Assembly: GCF_003439125.1 (NCBI RefSeq)
Contig: NZ_QSUU01000012.1
Span: 21,247-85,246, forward strand
Reading direction: 5' to 3'
Origin: Collinsella sp. OM04-5
GTDB lineage: Bacteria; Actinomycetota; Coriobacteriia; Coriobacteriales; Coriobacteriaceae
Length of the DNA: 64,000 nucleotides
Shown here: one piece after another, positions 12,866 to 22,275 of the stretch
Numbering within the stretch: position 1 is the stretch's first letter
How the letters are laid out: each line of letters begins with the position of its first letter
The notes under the pieces: model-generated
Database searches by the model: none
Told to the model about the DNA's origin: nothing
Seen by the model: only the letters and a program-made list of their open reading frames with translations
Program-made: the position numbers and the translations under genes

Positions 12866-13603
12866 CTAGGCAAGCGGATTCTTCTTTGCCATGCCATTTG
12901 CACGAGGCAATGAGACAGATGCTGGATGGCTCTTCTTAAGAACAATGAACTCCCTGTGGCCCAAGCCCTCAGGCAAATCGATTGCGTCATTCAGAAGCAA
13001 AGTAAAGCCGCAAATCTTAGCTACTGACATGCCGGAAGCAAGCTCCTCATCCGAAGGATTGCCCTTGGTGATAACAAATAGCCCTCCATCTTTGAGGAAC
13101 GGAGCCGCATACTCAACAAGAATCGGTAGAGGGGCCAGTGCGCGGGCGGTTACGACAGAGAACTGCTTCTTATGGTTTCGAGCATATTCTTCAAGACGAT
13201 CATGGACCGCATGAGCATGTTTCAATCCAAGAGCATGGACAAAGGAATCGACAGCATCAACCTTCTTGCCAACAGAGTCAATATAAGTAGCTTTACGATG
13301 CGTGGCTATGGTTAACGGAATACCAGGGAAGCCCGCACCTGTACCCATATCGAGCAAAGCTCCCTCAGGAGCCTTATTGATATAGGGGAGTAAAACAAGT
13401 GAGTCGAGGATATGAAGTACTGCAGCATCTTCTACGTTGAGAATACGGGTGAGATTGGTTGTCTTATTTGTTTCCAAAACCAAATCCAAATGCTTGATAC
13501 ATTTCCTCAGCTCAACATCAGTTACGCTCGAGGAATACTCTTTGCAATAGGAAGTTAGGCGACTCAACATCTCGTCAGCTTGCTGCTCAGTAAGTACTAA
13601 CAA
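12866..13603 (-). CDS. rsmG: 16S rRNA (guanine-527-N7)-methyltransferase RsmG
   Basis: 245 residues with the chosen start. SAM-dependent methyltransferase acting on G527 of 16S rRNA; loss gives streptomycin resistance in other bacteria. Motif I is LLDMGTGAGFPGIPL, with later ARALAPLPILVEYAAP. I prefer the TTG at 13603, which has AAGGAG 7 bases upstream. The longer reading from a TTG at 13651 would begin inside the flanking terminator. The last bases abut parS site 3. Codon use is AT-rich like parAB. Confidence 0.88.
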   Translation of the reverse strand: MLVLTEQQADEMLSRLTSYCKEYSSSVTDVELRKCIKHLDLVLETNKTTNLTRILNVEDAAVLHILDSLVLLPYINKAPEGALLDMGTGAGFPGIPLTIATHRKATYIDSVGKKVDAVDSFVHALGLKHAHAVHDRLEEYARNHKKQFSVVTARALAPLPILVEYAAPFLKDGGLFVITKGNPSDEELASGMSVAKICGFTLLLNDAIDLPEGLGHREFIVLKKSHPASVSLPRANGMAKKNPLA

Positions 13604-13647
13604 CGAAAGCTCCTTTCTGACAAAAATCAGTGTATCGAGAACTTTTG

Positions 13648-13681
13648 ACAAAAAAAGGGGACGTGGAAACCACGTCCCCTT
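13648..13681 (-). terminator. terminator of the rpmH-jag operon
   Basis: A perfect 12-bp stem (13655-13666 with 13670-13681, AAGGGGACGTGG) and a 3-base loop, followed leftwards by seven T residues. It separates jag from rsmG. Confidence 0.92.
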
Positions 13682-13699
13682 AGCATAAGCTCGAGTAGA

Positions 13700-14269
13700 T
13701 TATCGAGCAACAATCACCACATGGCGATCGGGGTCAGAACCCTCAGAATGAGTATCGACGGCATCATTGCCACGAAGTGCAATGTGAACCAGTCGGCGCT
13801 CGTAGGCATTCATGGGCGGAAGCGAAACACTCTTATGAGTGCGGATGGCACGCTCGGCAGCAGACTGAGCCATGGAGGCAACCTTGTCCTGTCGGCGGCT
13901 CTTGTATCCCTCGACGTCCACTACAACCGGATACCTAAAGCCAAGCTTGCGGCTCACCAGCAAAGAGAACATAACCTGAAGGGCATCAAGGGTACGACCA
14001 TGACGGCCAATGAGAACAGCAAGATCAGGAGCGGTAACATCCAAAATCAGCTCGCCCTCGTCACCCTCGTACTCATCAATAGGAGAGTTGGCGGCATCGA
14101 AGTGCGAAAGGATGGAACGCAGAATGGAAATCGCAACATCGGCGATGGTGTCGAGCTCCTCATCGGTCAGCTCTTCACCGGCCTTGTAGCGCTGTGCAAT
14201 CTCGGGATAATCGCCCACAATCTGCGGGGCAACCTCCTCAAGCATATCCTCGATGATCTCTTCAGACAT
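13700..14269 (-). CDS. Jag/KhpB-like RNA-binding protein (KH and R3H domains)
   Basis: 189 residues. A type II KH domain (LILDVTAPDLAVLIGRHGR) is followed by an R3H domain with RLVHIAL near the end. Family members bind RNA, partner KhpA and affect cell elongation. The N-terminal Jag_N part of longer homologues is absent; instead there is a short acidic start. ATG 14269 has GGAG 7 bases upstream, better than an in-frame TTG at 14281. It sits directly after yidC, the usual gene order. Confidence 0.88.
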   Translation of the reverse strand: MSEEIIEDMLEEVAPQIVGDYPEIAQRYKAGEELTDEELDTIADVAISILRSILSHFDAANSPIDEYEGDEGELILDVTAPDLAVLIGRHGRTLDALQVMFSLLVSRKLGFRYPVVVDVEGYKSRRQDKVASMAQSAAERAIRTHKSVSLPPMNAYERRLVHIALRGNDAVDTHSEGSDPDRHVVIVAR

Positions 14270-14284
14270 AACGTACTCCAAAAG

Positions 14285-14296
14285 TTAGGTACCTAA
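14285..14296. repeat. palindrome TTAGGTACCTAA, copy 2
   Basis: A perfect 12-base palindrome between yidC and jag. The same 12-mer occurs at 10781-10792 over the stop codon of the small gene behind parB. Role unknown. Confidence 0.5.
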
Positions 14297-14314
14297 ATAA
14301 GATTGATATCCCGA

Positions 14315-15085
14315 CTACTTCTTCTTGTGCGGGCGCGGCTTCTTCTCGCGACGGGTAACCTCGACCTGCAGCGGAGCGTTCTTGAGGCGCTCCTCCTCAT
14401 CGGCCTTAGCCTTGTCGATAACCTTCTGTGTCACGAAGATCTGCTGGATAACCTGCCAGGCAGAAGACACATCGTAGTACAGCAGAACACCAACGGGAAG
14501 GCTCCAGCCCATCCAAAGCATCATGACCGTCATGACAACGGCCATCATACGCATGCTCTGGGCCTGCTGGCCGGTCTGGTTGCGCGACATATAGAGCTGC
14601 GGAATCAGGGTCAGGACGGCAAACAGGATCAGGCAGACCAGCGCAGGCAGTGCAACCATAAAGCCATCGGCAAAGGAAGCGCTCGGCGTGGTGGTCAGGT
14701 CGGGCAGGATGTTGAAGAACGAGAACGTGCCCTCGTTAAAGTACTGCGGCAGGTTACGAAGCAGCGTAAACAGGGCAAACAGGATAGGCATCTGAATCAG
14801 AAGCGGCAGACAACCAGCCATGGGGTTGAACTTGTTCTCGCTGTAGAACTTCTGCATCTCCTCGGCCTGACGCTGGGGATCGTCGGCATAGCGCTCCTGG
14901 ATCTCGAGCATCTTGGGCTGCAGCACCTGCATGCGAGCCGTCGACTTGGTCGACTTGAGCATAAGCGGCGTCAGCAGCAGACGGATGATGACCACCAGGA
15001 TGATGATGGACAGGCCCCAGTCGACCGCAAAGGTCTGGATGAGCTTGAGCAGCTCGAAAAGGATGTTAACGATCCAATCCCACAT
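14315..15085 (-). CDS. yidC: membrane protein insertase YidC/Oxa1
   Basis: 256 residues. Inserts proteins into the cytoplasmic membrane, alone or with SecYEG. Five hydrophobic segments fit the Gram-positive short form without the large periplasmic domain. Recognisable parts are the first helix with its conserved Arg (ILVVIIRLLLTPL), NPMAGCLPLLIQMPILFAL, and a lysine/arginine-rich tail (KKPRPHKKK) that can contact ribosomes. Start ATG 30 bases after yidD. No lipobox signal is visible at the N-terminus. Confidence 0.93.
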   Translation of the reverse strand: MWDWIVNILFELLKLIQTFAVDWGLSIIILVVIIRLLLTPLMLKSTKSTARMQVLQPKMLEIQERYADDPQRQAEEMQKFYSENKFNPMAGCLPLLIQMPILFALFTLLRNLPQYFNEGTFSFFNILPDLTTTPSASFADGFMVALPALVCLILFAVLTLIPQLYMSRNQTGQQAQSMRMMAVVMTVMMLWMGWSLPVGVLLYYDVSSAWQVIQQIFVTQKVIDKAKADEEERLKNAPLQVEVTRREKKPRPHKKK

Positions 15086-15114
15086 GTAAGTTTTCCTCCG
15101 ATAGCGAGTGCCCG

Positions 15115-15342
15115 CTAGGGCACAGGGTCATAACCGCCGACGTGCAGGGGATTGCAGCGAGCGATGCGCCTCACGGCAAGCCAGCAGCCTCTCAAAACAC
15201 CGTACTTCTCAATCGCCTGGATGGCGTATTGCGAGCACGTTGGGTAATAAATGCAGGCGTCAGGCAATAAGGGCGAAATAACCTGTTGATATATGCGAAT
15301 AGGAGCGATGGCAACACGTCGCAAAACGTGGTTGCTCATCAC
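15115..15342 (-). CDS. yidD: membrane protein insertion efficiency factor YidD
   Basis: 75 residues, normal length. The family signature is intact: YYPTCSQYAIQAIEKYG and CNPLHVGGYDPVP. Small membrane-associated protein that helps YidC-dependent insertion. Overlaps rnpA by 4 bases, so the two are translationally coupled. Confidence 0.93.
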   Translation of the reverse strand: MMSNHVLRRVAIAPIRIYQQVISPLLPDACIYYPTCSQYAIQAIEKYGVLRGCWLAVRRIARCNPLHVGGYDPVP

Positions 15343-15674
15343 TCCTCCCCGGCAACGCCGGCGCGTTTCATAAGCGAACGCAATGCATTGTCCATCTCCT
15401 GCGGCGAGGAAACCCTCGTCTTGGGAGTTGCGAACAAGATGATGTCATAACCCGCAACGGGAAATCCACAGCTGCGGGCGGCCTCGCGCATCACACGCTT
15501 AGAACGGTTGCGCACGACAGCACAACCGAGCCGTTTAGCACCAACGAAGGCGACCCTTCCGGAGTCGCCTTCGCCAACCGATTCACATATGGTCATTCGA
15601 ATCAGAGGGTGATTGAAACGACGCCCCTGACTGAACACATGCTCGAAATCTTGCCGAGACTTAATAGTCTTCAT
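15339..15674 (-). CDS. rnpA: ribonuclease P protein component
   Basis: 111 residues. Protein subunit that helps the RNase P RNA cleave 5' leaders from tRNA precursors. The RNR signature is present as VRNRSKRVMREAAR, preceded by GRRFNHPLIRM. It follows rpmH by 20 bases and overlaps yidD, the standard order at bacterial origins. Confidence 0.93.
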   Translation of the reverse strand: MKTIKSRQDFEHVFSQGRRFNHPLIRMTICESVGEGDSGRVAFVGAKRLGCAVVRNRSKRVMREAARSCGFPVAGYDIILFATPKTRVSSPQEMDNALRSLMKRAGVAGEE

Positions 15675-15694
15675 GCGAGATGTGTGTATCGCTG

Positions 15695-15829
15695 CTAGAC
15701 AGTGAGACGCTTGCGGCCCTTGGCGCGACGACGGGCGAGCACGGCACGACCACCCTTGGAGGCCATACGGGCACGGAAGCCATGGGTCTTGGCACGCTTA
15801 CGCTTATTAGGCTGATACGTACGCTTCAT
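15695..15829 (-). CDS. rpmH: 50S ribosomal protein L34
   Basis: 44 residues, [18 protein letters not shown] onward, an almost invariant small basic protein of the large subunit. The start is ATG 15829 with AGGA upstream; a longer in-frame reading has no support. First gene of the operon, 73 bases downstream of a strong promoter. Confidence 0.96.
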
Positions 15830-15901
15830 CTTAAGTTCCTCCTGCTGCATTTCGAGTGTCCGCGGGGGCGCGGACGCAGATATAGACACGTGAGCTTGAA
15901 G

Positions 15902-15931
15902 ATTGTAGGGAAATCAATGTTCAAATGTCAA
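15902..15931 (-). promoter_or_regulatory. rpmH operon promoter
   Basis: Read leftwards: TTGACA (15931-15926), an 18-base spacer, then TACAAT (15907-15902). Near-consensus vegetative promoter in the right place for rpmH. Confidence 0.85.
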
Positions 15932-16028
15932 GAAATCAAAGGTAAAAGGTTGCGCAGTTCACACGGTTCCCCCATAAGCCGAGCTCGATTTAGCGGTGCA
16001 TGGCAACTTTTCACGATATTTCATCGAG

Positions 16029-16090
16029 TTTTCAACAGGTCATGTTGGCAATGTTGAGAACTTTTCGTCCGTTTTCCAAAGTTTTCAACA
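16029..16090. other. left part of oriC: DnaA-box-like cluster upstream of dnaA region
   Basis: In the 345-base gene-free gap 15830-16174, TTTTCAACA occurs at 16029-16037 and again at 16082-16090. Between them are TTCTCAACA on the other strand (16052-16060) and TTTTCCAAA (16072-16080). These resemble the classical box TTATCCACA with two changes. More copies lie in the following gene (17215-17223, 17245-17253) and after dnaA. The cluster may be one half of the origin and may also control transcription of the dnaA operon. Most of the rest of the gap holds the rpmH promoter. Confidence 0.6.
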
Positions 16091-16174
16091 GGTTTTGAAA
16101 AGTTGTCGAAAGATGAGAAACATTGCACGGTGAGCTACTATTTGTTCGAAACCTTTTGAAAGATTGCGAGCGGC

Positions 16175-17527
16175 ATGTCTGACGACTTTTACACCATGGT
16201 CGATTCCGGAGACCCGGCACCCGACAACGAGCACATCACCGGCGTGCGCGAAGAGCGTAAGGAAGGCGAGCAGACGACCACGCAGGCGCCAAAAGCCATG
16301 TACGCCGCGCGCATCGCCGTCTATGACGACATGCTGTCGACACCGCGTGTGATCGTCATTGATCCGCAAGATGTCCGCACGTATTTGGAAGAGACGACCA
16401 ACACCGTCTACCAGTGTATGAAAGAGCAAGGTGGCCACATCTCGCTCATGGTCATCCGCGAGATTGTCGAAAACTTTATCCACGCACACTTTGCCGAGCC
16501 CATCATCTCGATTCTGGACGGCGGAGACACCATCCGCTTTGCTGATCAAGGACCCGGCATCGACGACAAGGAGCGCGCTTTCGACTTTGGCGTTACCAGC
16601 GCAAACAGCAAGATGAAGCGCTATATCCGTGGAACCGGAGCAGGGTTTCCCATGGTGCAGGAGTATTTGGAAAACGCCGGCGGGGCCGTGTCCATCGAGG
16701 ACAACATGGGCAACGGCACCGTGGTTACGGTAAGCCTGGACCCTAAACGCGTGCAGGAAATCGAACGCGCCGGCGGGCGCGGTGCTGCCGTGCGGCCCGA
16801 GACGGAGCAGCCCGCATATCCCCTGCCGGGAGCTTTTGCGCAGCAGCCCATGGCAACGCAACAGATGCAGCCCCGCGTGGGACAGATGCAGCAGCCCGGA
16901 ATGCTTCCTACACAAGAGCCCCAGGCGGCGTCGATGTCGATGCCGCCAAACGTGCCAGAGGCCATGCCGCTGGCGGATCAGGATACAGCAGCAATGCAGC
17001 AGGCGACGGGGGCACCGGGTGGCCAGCAAATGGGCTATCAGCCGTACCAACAGGGATATCCATATCAGCAGATGCCGCCACTGGGGTATGGCCAGCAGTT
17101 CCCGCAGCAGTACCAGCAGGGATATCAGCAGCCGTACCAGCAGATGACGCAGCAGCAGTACAACCCCTGGGCCCAGCAGATGCCTCCGCAGCCTTACCAC
17201 CAGTGGCCTCAAAGTTTTCAACAGCAAATGCCGCCGATGCAGAGTTCTCAACAACCAGCAGCTCAAATGATGTATCCTAATGCAGCAAATCAGTATGCGC
17301 AGCCACAACCGGACGTGTTCGTAAGCGATCGCGGCAACGCCGCGCTGGGCTATCTGGCGCAAAATCAAGCGTGCGGTGCCACCGATCTGGCGAGGGCGTT
17401 TGGAAACTCGGCCCCCACTTGGTCACGCACGCTCAATGACTTGGCGCAGGCCGGCTTGGTCATCAAGCATGGCCAGAAATACCATCTGACCGAACTCGGC
17501 GCCGCTCGCGTGCGAGCTCAGAGCTAA
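16175..17527 (+). CDS. GHKL ATPase fused to Gln/Pro-rich linker and winged-helix-like C-terminus
   Basis: 450 residues. An HATPase domain covers about 50-200 with all motifs intact: N-box REIVENFIHAH (near 95-105), G1 DQGPGID (D124), G2 GTGAGFPMVQEYL (near 153), and a late GNGT. There is no phospho-accepting histidine domain, so it is not a standard sensor kinase; it is nearer to stand-alone ATPases such as anti-sigma kinases. Residues about 205-380 are rich in Gln, Pro, Met and Tyr with QQPYQQ-like repeats. The last 65 residues look like a winged helix (LARAFGNSAPTWSRTLNDL, then GLVIKHGQKYHLTELG). It lies 15 bases before dnaA, clearly in its operon. I do not know its function; a regulator of DnaA or of dnaA transcription is a reasonable guess. 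Confidence 0.8.
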   Translation: MSDDFYTMVDSGDPAPDNEHITGVREERKEGEQTTTQAPKAMYAARIAVYDDMLSTPRVIVIDPQDVRTYLEETTNTVYQCMKEQGGHISLMVIREIVENFIHAHFAEPIISILDGGDTIRFADQGPGIDDKERAFDFGVTSANSKMKRYIRGTGAGFPMVQEYLENAGGAVSIEDNMGNGTVVTVSLDPKRVQEIERAGGRGAAVRPETEQPAYPLPGAFAQQPMATQQMQPRVGQMQQPGMLPTQEPQAASMSMPPNVPEAMPLADQDTAAMQQATGAPGGQQMGYQPYQQGYPYQQMPPLGYGQQFPQQYQQGYQQPYQQMTQQQYNPWAQQMPPQPYHQWPQSFQQQMPPMQSSQQPAAQMMYPNAANQYAQPQPDVFVSDRGNAALGYLAQNQACGATDLARAFGNSAPTWSRTLNDLAQAGLVIKHGQKYHLTELGAARVRAQS

Positions 17528-17542
17528 AGAACGGGAGAGACA

Positions 17543-19267
17543 GTGGACGAGGAAGCAAGCATCATCCTGGGGGATGCCATCGCCTTTTGCCAGCGCGACG
17601 GCCGAGATGCACGCCTCATCAACATGCTGGGGCAATCGCGCGCCATAAGCCTGACCGAAGATACGCTCACGATCGAGGCCCCCTCGCGCTTTGCCATCGC
17701 GCAGCTCAAAAAGCATCAGCCGACCATTGAGGCCTATCTGGAAGAAATCGCCTTTGCACCGATCGCGCTCGACATCGTGGCACCGCAAGGCGCCGCGACG
17801 GAATCCGCTGCCGCGACGGCGCCTGCCACGGCTCCCGCAGCTTCCCCGGCGGTGCCGGCCTCCGCAGGCGACGTGCCGACAATCGAGCACCAGCACAGCG
17901 ATGTTTCCCGTGAAACCATGGCACCGTTGCCGACCGCGGCGGCGACGTCAACGAACGCACCCGTCACGCACATGCCCATCGCTCACGACGCAACGACGGG
18001 CGCGGATTCGGGCATTGCAATCAAGAACACGCTCTCGGCCGATGATTTTCGCCGCATGATGAACCAGATGAAGGGCGGAGCGCCAACTAAATCCACGCAA
18101 GCTGCGACCCCCGCTTCACCCATGCCAGCACCGACCGCGCCGGCCGAACAGAATACGGATGGAGCCCCGCTCGCCGCGAACTCAAAATTTACCTTTGAGA
18201 ACTTTGTCTACGGCCCCGAGAACAGCCATGCCTATCGCTCGGCACTCAAGTTTGCCGCCCTCGCGGACGAGCGGGGCACGTGCACATCACTGTTCATCTA
18301 CGGCAAATCGGGCCTGGGCAAGACGCACCTGCTGCTTGCCATCAAAAACGAGCTCGCCGAAAAGTTGCCCGAGATCAAGGTCAAGTATGCCAACTCCCAG
18401 GCATATCTGGACGACCTGATGACCGAGTTCGACCGCCAAAAGAAGAGCAACGCCCCCATCATGCAGGCGTACCACGGCGTGGACGTGCTCATCATCGACG
18501 ACATCCAAAACATCATCGGCAAGCGCGCGAGCGTGGACTACTTTTTCCAGCTCATGGACGAGTTCATCCGCAACAACAAGAAGGTCGTCATCGCGGCAGA
18601 CCGCGCCCCCAAGGACCTGAGCATGGACGAGCGTCTAACCAGCCGCTTCAACGCCGGCATGCTCTGCCTGGTCGCAGAGCCCAGCTACGAAATGAAATAC
18701 AAGATCTTGCAGCGCTATTACGAGAACACCATCGTCGCCGCTCCCGAGGCAGGCGACGACTCGCTGCTGGCGGCCTATGGGGGCGACGGCGGGCACCTAA
18801 CCGACGAGCACTTTAAACACATGGCCGAGGTCTCGGGCACCAACATCCGCGAACTCGAGAGCTTTTGCGAGCGCTGCGCCGGCGAGGCGGGCGACCGCGA
18901 GCGCGAGGGCGGGGAGCTCACCTTTGACGATATCGACGCCATCGCCAGCCAGTACTTTGACACATCGGCCAAAAAGATCAACGTCCAGACGGTTCAGTCC
19001 GTCATCGAAGAGCAGTACGGCGTGACGCACGAGGAGCTCATCGGCCCGCGTCGCAACGCCAATATCGCCAAAGCACGCCATATCGCTATCTACCTGGCCA
19101 TCGAGATGTGCGAGATGACGACCACGGCGGTGGGCGCCGAATTTGGCAACCGCAACCACTCGACCGTCAGCACGAGTTACAAAAAGGTCCAGAAGATGAT
19201 CCAGGAAGACCGCACCGTCACCGAAGACCTCAAGTCGCTGCGCGATAAAATTACACTGCGCTCGTAG
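17543..19267 (+). CDS. dnaA: chromosomal replication initiator DnaA
   Basis: 574 residues, longer than usual because domain II (about 85-205) is an extended Ala/Pro/Thr-rich linker. The AAA+ domain shows Walker A GKSGLGKT (254-261) and Walker B VLIIDDIQ (315-322). Domain IV has the DNA-binding signature around FGNRNHSTVSTSYKKV. It binds DnaA boxes at oriC, melts the DNA and recruits DnaB. The start is a GTG (17543) with GGGAGAG upstream, 15 bases after the GHKL gene. A parS-like sequence lies within the linker coding region. DnaA-box-like motifs occur on both sides of the gene. Confidence 0.96.
   Translation: MDEEASIILGDAIAFCQRDGRDARLINMLGQSRAISLTEDTLTIEAPSRFAIAQLKKHQPTIEAYLEEIAFAPIALDIVAPQGAATESAAATAPATAPAASPAVPASAGDVPTIEHQHSDVSRETMAPLPTAAATSTNAPVTHMPIAHDATTGADSGIAIKNTLSADDFRRMMNQMKGGAPTKSTQAATPASPMPAPTAPAEQNTDGAPLAANSKFTFENFVYGPENSHAYRSALKFAALADERGTCTSLFIYGKSGLGKTHLLLAIKNELAEKLPEIKVKYANSQAYLDDLMTEFDRQKKSNAPIMQAYHGVDVLIIDDIQNIIGKRASVDYFFQLMDEFIRNNKKVVIAADRAPKDLSMDERLTSRFNAGMLCLVAEPSYEMKYKILQRYYENTIVAAPEAGDDSLLAAYGGDGGHLTDEHFKHMAEVSGTNIRELESFCERCAGEAGDREREGGELTFDDIDAIASQYFDTSAKKINVQTVQSVIEEQYGVTHEELIGPRRNANIAKARHIAIYLAIEMCEMTTTAVGAEFGNRNHSTVSTSYKKVQKMIQEDRTVTEDLKSLRDKITLRS
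17902..17917. promoter_or_regulatory. parS-like site inside dnaA, 2 mismatches
   Basis: TGTTTCCCGTGAAACC differs from the parS palindrome at positions 7 and 16. It lies in the poorly conserved domain II coding part, where the protein would tolerate such a site. Confidence 0.45.
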
Positions 19268-19505
19268 GGAAATAGAGACACCTGTTGAAAACTTGTCGAA
19301 ACCACGGGCATAAGGTGTCTAAAACCCAACCCGCGGTGATGAAAAGTTTTGCGCAGGTTTTGAACGTGGAAAACCACCCCTGTTGCACACAGGTTGCTGT
19401 CGATTCTCTTTCTTGGTCTGACCTGCGTCTTTGGGAGTAATCAACAGTTTCGTCAGTGCTATTACTATTATTAAGATATTTATATCTATAGAAAGGTATT
19501 AAAAG
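19268..19505. other. probable oriC (dnaA-dnaN spacer)
   Basis: 238 bases between dnaA and dnaN. It contains DnaA-box-like TGTTGAAAA (19283-19291, the reverse of TTTTCAACA), CGTGGAAAA (19365-19373) and TAATCAACA (19438-19446). The last is followed by a triplet run (19459-19473) and then a very AT-rich stretch (19461-19502) that could melt first. Gene orientation switches from left to right around here, as expected at an origin. A GC-skew plot was not available to me. Confidence 0.75.
19459..19473. other. DnaA-trio-like element
   Basis: CTA-TTA-CTA-TTA-TTA on the plus strand gives 3'-GAT-AAT-GAT-AAT-AAT-5' on the other, matching the known DnaA-trio pattern 3'-(G/A)A(T/A)-5'. Orientation and place, just after a DnaA box and before the AT-rich part, also match. 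Confidence 0.6.
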
Positions 19506-20609
19506 ATGAAGTTCACCGTCAGCCAGAGCTCGCTTACACAAGCCATCGGCGTCGTTATGAAGGGTGTCGCTTCGGCATCCACCCTTCCCATCCTGTCGGG
19601 CGTGCTCGTTAAGGCCCAAGACGGCATCTTGGAATTCCAGACCTCTAACTACACTATCTCGATCCGTCATCGCATCGCGGCGCATGTCGAAGAAGAGGGC
19701 GAGATGGTTATCCCCTGTAAGGTGCTCTCCAATATCACCAAGACCCTCCCCGATGCCCCGGTCACCTTTGAGCTGTCCGAGCGCCAGGTGCTGATTGGTT
19801 GCGAGAAGAGCTCTTTTAGGCTGAACACGCTCGATGCCAATGACTTCCCCGAGTTTCCGGCCTATGCCATCGAGAGTGCCGTGGAGCTGCCGACCGATGT
19901 CTTGTCCGAAATGGTCGGCCGCGTGTGGCGCGTCACCTCGACCGACAAGGCTCGCCCCATCCTGGGCGGCGTGCACATGAAGGTCGAGAACAACACCGTA
20001 CGCCTGGTGGCGACCGATTCCTTCCGCTTGGCCGTGTGCGATACGCAGGTCGAGACCTCGACCCTCGAGGGCTCCTTTGAGCTCAACGTTCCGGCTGACG
20101 CCTTTAACGACGCGCTGAACATCATGGCCAGCCAAGCGACCATCATGATCGGCGCTACCGACACCCAGGTCGTCTTCGAGGCCGGCAACACCACCTACGT
20201 GTCGCGTCGCATCGAGGGCGTGTACCCCAACTACAAGCAGCTCATCCCCGATTCGTGCGTGACGAGCGTCAAGATCGACGTCGCCGCCTTTAACGCCGCC
20301 CTCAAGCGCGTGGCCGTCATCGCGAGCGCCAACCCCGCCGTCAAGTTCGAGATCGATGTCGAGAACGGGCAGATGGGCCTGTCCTCCATTTCCAATGACC
20401 AGGACCTTGCGCAGGAGACGATCGATGTCGAGGCCGAGGGCGAGTCGGGTACCATCGCCTTCAACTACCACTACATCTTCGGCTGCCTCAATGCCCTGTC
20501 CAAGGAGAAGGAGATCACGCTGGAGCTCAAGAGCTACTCGCAGGCGGGCATCTTTAAGTCCTACGACAAGATCAACTACCTGTACCTGGTCATGCCGGTC
20601 CGCATCTAG
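19506..20609 (+). CDS. dnaN: DNA polymerase III subunit beta (sliding clamp)
   Basis: 367 residues, normal for the family. Forms the ring-shaped dimer that tethers DNA polymerase III to its template. The N-terminus MKFTVSQSSLTQAIGVVMKG, the middle KARPILGGVHMK and the C-terminal YLVMPVRI are typical of the three-repeat clamp fold. The terminal MPVR forms part of the peptide-binding pocket. ATG with AAAGG about 9 bases upstream, directly after the AT-rich edge of oriC. recF starts 9 bases after its stop. Confidence 0.95.
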   Translation: MKFTVSQSSLTQAIGVVMKGVASASTLPILSGVLVKAQDGILEFQTSNYTISIRHRIAAHVEEEGEMVIPCKVLSNITKTLPDAPVTFELSERQVLIGCEKSSFRLNTLDANDFPEFPAYAIESAVELPTDVLSEMVGRVWRVTSTDKARPILGGVHMKVENNTVRLVATDSFRLAVCDTQVETSTLEGSFELNVPADAFNDALNIMASQATIMIGATDTQVVFEAGNTTYVSRRIEGVYPNYKQLIPDSCVTSVKIDVAAFNAALKRVAVIASANPAVKFEIDVENGQMGLSSISNDQDLAQETIDVEAEGESGTIAFNYHYIFGCLNALSKEKEITLELKSYSQAGIFKSYDKINYLYLVMPVRI

Positions 20610-20618
20610 CGCTGCGCC

Positions 20619-21725
20619 ATGACCATGTTCGCCCGCGATCTTTCCGTCGCGCACTACCGCAGCTTCGATAGCTATCACCTTGCCCTGGACGAGGGCGTGA
20701 CGATACTTGCGGGACCCAACGCGGCGGGAAAGACCAATCTCATAGAGGCGCTGCAGCTGCTGACGAGCGGCGCCTCGTTTAGGCATCCGACCGCAGCCGA
20801 GCTCGTCCATGACGGCGTGGGCTCGTGCAAGATCGAGCTGAGGCTCGAGGGCGACGGCCGCGTGCTTGATATGGGATTGAGCGCGGAGGACGGTAAGCGC
20901 TCGTTTAGCCGCAACGGCAAGAGATGCTCTGCCGCCGGTGTGCGCGGGGTTCTTCCGAGCGTGCTGTTTTGCCCCGACCATCTGGACATGGTTAAGCGTG
21001 GCGCCAGTGTGCGCCGCGCCGCCCTCGATGACTTTGGCATGCAACTGAGCGCACGCTATGCCGATCTTGCGAGCACCTATGGGCGCTGCGTGACCCAGCG
21101 TAACGCCTTGCTCAAGGAGACCTGGTGCTGCCGCGAGATGCTCGGCGCGTGGAACGATTCGATTGCCCGCGCGGGCTCGGCCCTGCTCGTGCACCGGTTG
21201 GCTCTGCTCGACCGGCTGGCGGGCCATGTGCACACTGCCTACGGGCAAGTAGCGTCAGGTGAGGCCGCCAACGTGACCTATGCGTCCACGCTGGGGGCTT
21301 TGCCCCAGGTCGAGGATCGCGAAGAGCTGAAGGGTTGGGCGTACGAGCGCATGCTGGCCGCCCTTGACGAGCATGCCGACGAGGAAATTCGCCGCGGCGT
21401 GACGTTGGTGGGACCGCATCGCGACGAGATTGAGTTTACCGTGGCGGGTCGCTCCGCCCGTTCATTTGCCAGCCAAGGACAGCAGCGCACGCTGGTGCTG
21501 TCCTGGAAGGTGGCCGAGGTTGCCGTGGCTCGCGATGTCCTGGGCACCGCCCCACTGCTGCTTTTGGACGACGTGATGAGCGAGCTCGACGGCGAGCGTC
21601 GCGGCGCTTTCCTGCGGCTGATTGGCGATGATATCCAGACGGTCATAACTACGACCAACCTGGGGTACTTTACCGATGACCTGCTTGATCGAGCCAAGGT
21701 GGTGAGCATGGGTGAGACGTGCTAA
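20619..21725 (+). CDS. recF: DNA replication/repair protein RecF
   Basis: 368 residues. SMC-like ATPase that helps load RecA at gaps with RecO and RecR. Walker A is LAGPNAAGKTNLIEAL near residues 27-42, the signature region is ASQGQQRTLVLSWKVAE, and Walker B is LLLLDDVMSELD. There is no clear ribosome-binding site; translation may be coupled to dnaN 9 bases before. An alternative ATG lies two codons in. The end overlaps the next gene by 14 bases. Confidence 0.94.
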   Translation: MTMFARDLSVAHYRSFDSYHLALDEGVTILAGPNAAGKTNLIEALQLLTSGASFRHPTAAELVHDGVGSCKIELRLEGDGRVLDMGLSAEDGKRSFSRNGKRCSAAGVRGVLPSVLFCPDHLDMVKRGASVRRAALDDFGMQLSARYADLASTYGRCVTQRNALLKETWCCREMLGAWNDSIARAGSALLVHRLALLDRLAGHVHTAYGQVASGEAANVTYASTLGALPQVEDREELKGWAYERMLAALDEHADEEIRRGVTLVGPHRDEIEFTVAGRSARSFASQGQQRTLVLSWKVAEVAVARDVLGTAPLLLLDDVMSELDGERRGAFLRLIGDDIQTVITTTNLGYFTDDLLDRAKVVSMGETC

Positions 21726-22275
21726 TTACGAGCGCGAGAGCGAGACAGTCGCCTTCAGCGGGTTTTTGAACGCAGAGCGCCAGCGCATCCTGGCGGCTGC
21801 AACGCCTAAGCGCCGTGCGCAGATGGAGGCCGCCGAGGAGTCGCGCACGGTCTATCGCGCCTGGAACGCGGTGTGCTCGGGCACGCGCGAGGGGCGGCAT
21901 GTGACGGGACTGCGCTACCTGCCCGAGTCCAATGAGCTGCTGGTGTATCTCGACTCGCCCTCGTGGACGCAGGAAATGACGCTGTTGCGCGAGATCATCC
22001 GCGCGCGCATGGAGCGCGCCGGTGCGCATGTGGACGGCCTGGTGTTCAAAACCACCGCGCCCGGTCACACGCCGCCCGCCGCCAAGGAGCGCCTGCGCCC
22101 GGCGACGACCGAGCGCCCGCCGGCCCCGCACGCCGACCTAAGTGAGGCCGAGTGCACCGAGATCGAGCGCCAGGTGGCGCCCATCGAAGACCAAAAACTG
22201 CGCGAGGCCCTCGAGAATGCCATGAGAGCCAGTGCCGAGTGGGCCAAGGGCGTGCAAAGCAAAAAAGAGCCTTAA
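21712..22275 (+). CDS. DUF721 (DciA-like) protein
   Basis: 187 residues. The part around 35-115, with TVYRAWNAVCSGTREGRHVTG and LLVYLDSPSWTQEMTLL, fits the DUF721 family. In bacteria without DnaC-type loaders this family includes DciA, which helps load DnaB; the gene between recF and gyrB is the usual actinobacterial place for it. The rest is charged and low in complexity. It starts at a GTG overlapping recF by 14 bases with GGTGGTGAG upstream. The family is likely; the helicase-loading role is inferred from position and family. Confidence 0.75.
   Translation: MRRANYERESETVAFSGFLNAERQRILAAATPKRRAQMEAAEESRTVYRAWNAVCSGTREGRHVTGLRYLPESNELLVYLDSPSWTQEMTLLREIIRARMERAGAHVDGLVFKTTAPGHTPPAAKERLRPATTERPPAPHADLSEAECTEIERQVAPIEDQKLREALENAMRASAEWAKGVQSKKEP

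Follow-up and report, generated by a model that had tools for sequence, protein, structure and literature searches.

The gene that lies directly upstream of dnaA in Collinsella encodes a GHKL ATPase domain joined by a Gln/Pro-rich linker to a winged helix, and relatives of it hold the same place beside dnaA in the Coriobacteriia and in other classes of Actinomycetota. The evidence supports the view that this gene is an old, functional partner of dnaA. The reading that we favour, and to which we give about an even chance, is that its product is a DNA-binding regulator, switched by ATP, that acts on the dnaA operon or the origin: the nucleotide state of the GHKL ATPase would control a MarR-type winged helix, the winged helix would bind DNA in the origin or promoter region of its own operon, and DnaA synthesis, possibly together with origin firing, would follow ATP or the state of the cell.

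The gene and its product

The window, by which we mean the whole 64-kb stretch of Collinsella sp. OM04-5 DNA that was analysed, holds the classic origin cluster of the Collinsella chromosome, in which the gene sits between a divergent rpmH and dnaA–dnaN–recF–DUF721–gyrB (table 1). The names rpmH, rnpA, yidC, dnaA, dnaN, recF and gyrB, and DciA for DUF721, are those that we take these genes to carry. A first-pass annotation had described the open reading frame as an intact GHKL ATPase followed by a Gln/Pro-rich linker and a winged-helix-like end, with 15 nt between its stop codon and dnaA; the spacing is correct, and the domain layout is borne out by the reading frame, Pfam and models. An identical protein (100%) is found in Collinsella sp. 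TF06-26, the closest named relative, and C. aerofaciens comes next at 95–98%. Antisense to the gene lies an open frame of 427 aa (window 16085–17368, minus strand), likely a by-product of codon composition. No Rfam family reached its gathering score in 13000–22000, and a promoter scan of 15650–19600 returned one sigma-70-like match, on the minus strand toward rpmH, which is no more than shuffled sequences gave.

Table 1. Features of the dnaA-linked gene and its surroundings, in window coordinates.
Feature	Position	Strand	Basis or remark
rpmH, divergent neighbour beyond the upstream DnaA boxes	15695..15829	-	translation; name from sequence
DnaA box TTTTCAACA, upstream of gene	16029..16037	+	
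DnaA-box-like TTCTCAACA, upstream of gene	16052..16060	-	
DnaA box TTTTCAACA, upstream of gene	16082..16090	+	
dnaA-linked GHKL ATPase–winged helix gene, 450 aa	16175..17527	+	ORF, Pfam, orthologues within the class and the phylum
GHKL ATPase domain with N-terminal beta hairpin, residues 38–195	16286..16759	+	PF02518, model, dN/dS
N-box IREIVENFIHAHF	16454..16492	+	E96 and N100 spaced as in EIVDN of GyrB from the same window
DnaA-box-like TTTTCGACA, in N-box codons	16465..16473	-	
Gln/Pro-rich linker, residues 196–382, predicted disordered	16760..17320	+	
Stretch conserved at synonymous sites with two DnaA-box-like sites, in linker-coding region	17210..17283		
DnaA box TTTTCAACA, inside gene (linker)	17215..17223	+	
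DnaA-box-like TTCTCAACA, inside gene (linker)	17245..17253	+	
Winged-helix domain, residues 383–450	17321..17524	+	
dnaA, 574 aa	17543..19267	+	starts 15 nt past the stop codon of the gene; name from sequence
DnaA box TTTTCAACA, between dnaA and dnaN	19283..19291	-	
dnaN	19506..20609	+	ORF; name by sequence and gene order

The best sequence profile of the protein is PF02518 (Pfam, E 5e-11), and sequence and models together give the features of the GHKL superfamily, namely an N-box, G1 (DxGxG), G2 (GxGxG) and a Bergerat-type fold. The D.G.G pattern is present in 121/121 proteins, a G2-like pattern in 120/121 and the pattern Glu-x3-Asn-x2-His (E-x3-N-x2-H) in 119/121, while across 33 aligned divergent members the residues of the N-box, G1 and G2 vary little or not at all. 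The Glu and Asn of the N-box align with EIVDN of the GyrB encoded in the window (hhalign profile comparison, probability 56%, E 1e-4). In GyrB, MutL and Hsp90 the N-box Glu serves as the base for ATP hydrolysis, and histidine kinases carry a different residue at that position; the GHKL fold of SpoIIAB/RsbW has the catalytic Glu. Because the N-box Glu is spaced as in GyrB, we infer an ATPase or kinase in preference to the remnant of a histidine kinase, and the GHKL domain presumably hydrolyses ATP.

The C-terminal domain is MarR/IclR-like, with the conserved recognition helix and wing of a winged helix. Profile matches at E up to 0.01 among the 33 members are to HVO_A0261_N (27 members), TrmB (22), HTH_IclR (22) and MarR (12), and in the window protein every helix–turn–helix family matched stays under its curated Pfam cut-off. 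The winged-helix-like end, first proposed from sequence pattern alone, now rests in addition on these sub-threshold profiles in most members, on the fold and on conserved basic residues. Its recognition helix is of the 'TWSRE' type in 23 of 120 loci, of the 'STAYR' type in 56 and of other types in 41. The linker is far shorter in most other lineages aligned, and is modelled as long and flexible in Collinsella.

The GHKL and winged-helix domains are under purifying selection. Against four Collinsella loci, dN/dS is 0.011–0.033 for the GHKL domain (where dS is 0.64–0.75), 0.04–0.09 for the winged helix and 0.15–0.2 for the linker; against four more distant Collinsella/Enorma loci the values are higher and partly saturated, at 0.06–0.11 for the GHKL domain and 0.16–0.18 for the winged helix where defined. 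Over 107 loci, GHKL distances correlate with those of DnaA (r 0.59, the best of 500 permutations reaching 0.13).

Comparison with known systems

Histidine kinases of the HATPase_c type share the best profile (PF02518), the fold and the G1 and G2 motifs with the window protein, which differs from them in the N-box, where the Glu four residues before the Asn is placed as in GyrB, and in the absence of HisKA/DHp. The earlier statement that the protein has no His-phosphotransfer domain stands, neither HisKA nor Hpt being found among its 13 Pfam matches at E up to 10, and a two-component histidine kinase was rejected on the same ground, the domain with the phospho-acceptor His being missing. The DIP2311-type regulator (PDB 3lmm) likewise places a winged helix after a GHKL-type domain, and it is the top full-length match, by Foldseek and VIA, of a modelled orthologue. 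This resemblance holds domain by domain only, with an rmsd of 13–16 A and about 15% identity. The layout of 3lmm is presumably AlbA_2–HATPase_c_4–winged helix (COG2865); unlike it, the window protein has neither AlbA_2 nor HATPase_c_4 among its 13 Pfam families (E up to 10) and is encoded beside dnaA. A role in defence was discarded, as the PADLOC matches (helix–turn–helix parts of CasR, Csa3 and CARF) do not extend beyond the winged helix and the sequence flanking it.

SpoIIAB/RsbW is matched weakly at profile level through chains 1l0o and 1til (E 4e-5), and unlike these proteins the window protein carries an extra winged helix. This likeness belongs to an alternative in which the protein acts on DnaA itself, a SpoIIAB-type kinase or ATP-driven clamp that would bind, phosphorylate or remodel DnaA, with the winged helix as an origin tether. 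Along with the SpoIIAB match, it draws on the GyrB-like spacing of the N-box Glu, the tight cistronic coupling with dnaA, and the origin location with its embedded DnaA boxes. Against it, several histidine kinases match better than SpoIIAB, and neither a sigma factor nor a STAS gene is found among the marker genes and reading frames adjoining the gene in the window. We regard this alternative as unlikely but worth keeping in mind. A SpoIIAB/RsbW-type operon was itself rejected, the neighbours being rnpA and yidC on one side and dnaA, dnaN and recF on the other.

The role that we favour, taxon-specific control of DnaA, is shared in kind with DiaA, HobA, SirA, Hda and YabA, the last of which is a regulator of DnaA. 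To our knowledge none of these five combines GHKL and winged-helix domains or has its gene immediately ahead of dnaA across so broad a range of taxa. Both GHKL–winged helix fusions (3lmm) and taxon-specific DnaA regulators are thus already known. As regulators of DnaA, DiaA, HobA, SirA and Hda are named in PMC13270200. A dnaA-linked GHKL–winged helix family spanning several classes of Actinomycetota was not found in the literature searched, and an earlier mention elsewhere is possible; the first-pass remark that no described system of exactly this layout was known agrees with that literature, the fusion as such being present in the PDB (3lmm).

Distribution and losses

Of 396 Coriobacteriia genomes sampled, 379 have a match at E up to 1e-3, of which 341 are strong (E 4e-23 or better) and 38 weak (E 4e-7 or worse, the level of generic kinases), a division read from the matches themselves. 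No second strong copy was found in 80 genomes from 79 genera, each of which has one. Among the 55 genomes that lack a strong match, 53 were searched for dnaA (G146 and G150, both weak, being left out), and 41 of these 53 have no dnaA match at E up to 1e-15 either; their assemblies probably do not contain the origin. Some of the 41 assemblies are rated up to 99% complete, and the origin region seems often to be lost in assembly or binning. The other 12 do have dnaA: two are cut at a contig end, and in ten dnaA comes after rnpA and no copy separates the two. These ten, from genera g45 and g7 (three genomes each), g6, g40, g73 and g76, look like real losses; a tblastn search for remnants in the loss lineages gave only short matches (best E 0.47–0.84). 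The gene was thus lost in ten genomes that keep dnaA and is therefore dispensable.

Across the phylum 296 genomes were sampled, and 120 of them have a match at E up to 1e-10. Of these, 94 lie outside the class: one weak match (f52) and 93 distributed over 18 families of other Actinomycetota classes. Among the 176 non-matching genomes, the dnaA region was examined for 19 of 20 listed; the 18 loci with at least 3.5 kb visible upstream of dnaA hold no relative, and L295 shows 384 nt there. A family-model match beside dnaA in L293 (E 3e-4) proved to be a DtxR-type repressor and not a relative. Among 120 listed of 1020 matches, two bear the label Armatimonadota and one Firmicutes (P0235, P0240 and P0151), labels that may err for metagenome-assembled genomes; judged by these matches, the family may reach beyond Actinomycetota. 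A mobile origin was rejected: none of 54 pattern matches in viral contigs was confirmed as a relative, and plasmids gave none at E up to 1e-10.

Linkage to dnaA

The first-pass annotation had named absence of the gene, or lack of linkage to dnaA, in related genomes as grounds against its own reading; instead, its distribution is wide and its linkage to dnaA strong. In 131 of the 133 loci that show dnaA, the gene is the immediate same-strand upstream neighbour of dnaA. For the class, 80 loci were taken, one per genus with one exception; three stop at a contig end, and in all 77 that show dnaA the two genes are on the same strand with a gap of at most 302 nt to the first possible dnaA start, six of them overlapping by 4 nt. 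Of 40 loci from other classes, four stop at a contig end and the remaining 36 are all linked, with −13 to 100 nt from the stop codon to the dnaA match. Among 20 further loci of f5, a family that we take to be Eggerthellaceae-like, 18 are linked at a distance of no more than 305 nt, measured to the dnaA match or to its first start; in L317 the match to dnaA starts 1,149 nt beyond the gene, and in L326 the gene is divergent from dnaA.

Linkage to dnaA is weaker evidence than linkage elsewhere would be, because the origin cluster changes slowly in general, and rnpA, yidC, dnaN and recF likewise stay close by in most loci. An ordinary transcription regulator of other genes, kept by dnaA only because this cluster rarely rearranges, would account for that proximity and for the gene losses. 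The rearrangements in f5 argue against it. Across 26 f5 loci the GHKL–dnaA pair is inverted as a unit in 14, in the usual order in 11 and split between strands in one, so that 14 of the 15 rearranged loci kept the two genes together; the pair therefore mostly acts as a unit when its surroundings change. The single strong copy in each of the 80 genomes also counts against an ordinary regulator, and we hold that explanation to be improbable.

The inversion is relative to dnaN and is seen in g25 (9/9 examined), g64, g83, g84, g80 and one g10 genome, while L105, a further g10 genome, keeps the usual order. The f5 loci related to inversion are L096, L118, L131, L311–L318, L323, L327 and L329, a pattern of repeated inversion of the cassette, and genus g10 contains three different states. 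No inverted repeat of 12–40 nt was found in the 900-bp flanks of L096, L118 and L131. Inversion between two clusters of DnaA boxes may favour joint movement of the pair.

DnaA boxes around and within the gene

The DnaA-box consensus is TTATCCACA, and the box of the window is instead TTTTCAACA, of which the 64 kb contain four exact copies, all in the origin cluster (16029, 16082, 17215 and 19283). The C-terminus of the DnaA encoded in the window has the DNA-binding motif NRNHSTV (near 19142–19190); the motif is GGRDHTTV in 47 of 120 loci and GGRSHATV or GNRTHATV in others. To judge from these motifs, the box and its reader seem to have changed together. Two further sequence elements were seen near origins: TAATAATAGTAATAG, at window 19459–19473 on the minus strand shortly before dnaN, which we take to resemble the DnaA-trio repeats of the origin unwinding element, and TCACGTGAA words beside the origin in six of eight f5-group loci with the DnaA motif NRDHSTV, which resemble ParB parS sites.

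Across 120 loci, DnaA-box-like sites number 4.06 per kb in the interval from rnpA to the gene, 5.76 in that from dnaA to dnaN, 0.67 within the gene (some of these may be upstream, each gene having been given its most upstream possible start), 0.32 within dnaA and 0.08–0.13 in flanking regions. Their density upstream of the gene is 30–50 times that of flanking genes, and the gene's promoter therefore lies within a main DnaA-box cluster. At least two such sites stand upstream in 96 of 120 loci, and between dnaA and dnaN in just 28 of 104. With DnaA boxes masked, a k-mer and dyad search of the 120 upstream regions gave promoter-like and AT-rich words and no clear shared dyad operator. An architectural protein of the origin or nucleoid, an ATP-dependent dimer that would bridge the box clusters rather than regulate transcription, would suit an operon flanked by two regions dense in DnaA-box-like sites and the modelled long, flexible linker of Collinsella, but the linker is short in most members aligned and we think this very improbable.

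Part of the linker-coding sequence is itself conserved as DNA. In four Collinsella genomes, all 41 of the fully identical 12-mers among 533 windows of the linker fall inside 17210–17283, a block chosen after inspection of the data, so that the Fisher p of 3e-9 is descriptive; 55% of linker columns are identical over the four genomes, at a linker dS of about 1. The longest run of identical codons in the gene, 15 codons (17237–17281), lies within this block, and the second longest, 10 codons (16454–16483), lies over another box-like site, where the protein is invariant too; for comparison, runs of identical codons in dnaA reach at most 12 codons over three of the genomes. Both linker boxes, at 17215 and 17245, are present in 18 of 18 near relatives. 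Among six more distant Collinsella/Enorma loci, boxes occur in the linker region of L161, L162 and L176 and are absent from that of L160, L163 and L170. We read the block as a putative segment of the origin or of the dnaA promoter lying within the gene, and thus as a possible instance of a protein-coding linker that harbours origin DNA.

A candidate system of initiation control

Under the reading of an ATP-switched regulator, the protein would be expected to bind DNA at a site near its own operon and to act on dnaA or oriC. That DnaA level or activity is adjusted to ATP, as the first-pass annotation had suggested, stays at the level of what we infer, because no operator was found and ten genomes that keep dnaA have lost the gene.

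We know of no studied system of initiation control in Coriobacteriia or their deep-branching relatives. For initiation control beyond a few model bacteria, this gene adjoining dnaA offers a testable entry point, and the gene, side by side with dnaA in many early-branching actinobacteria, is a strong candidate for a novel form of replication control. In a broader and more tentative proposal, which falls somewhat short of an even chance, many deep-branching Actinomycetota would possess an ancient module for initiation, in which dnaA would be produced along with its own GHKL ATPase–winged helix switch; the switch would sense ATP, bind at the origin region and set either the synthesis of DnaA or the assembly of the orisome, with part of the Collinsella origin, in the form of conserved DnaA boxes, lying within the coding sequence of the regulator. 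If true, this module would define a new class of control over initiation in bacteria, one that is absent from many other families of Actinomycetota.
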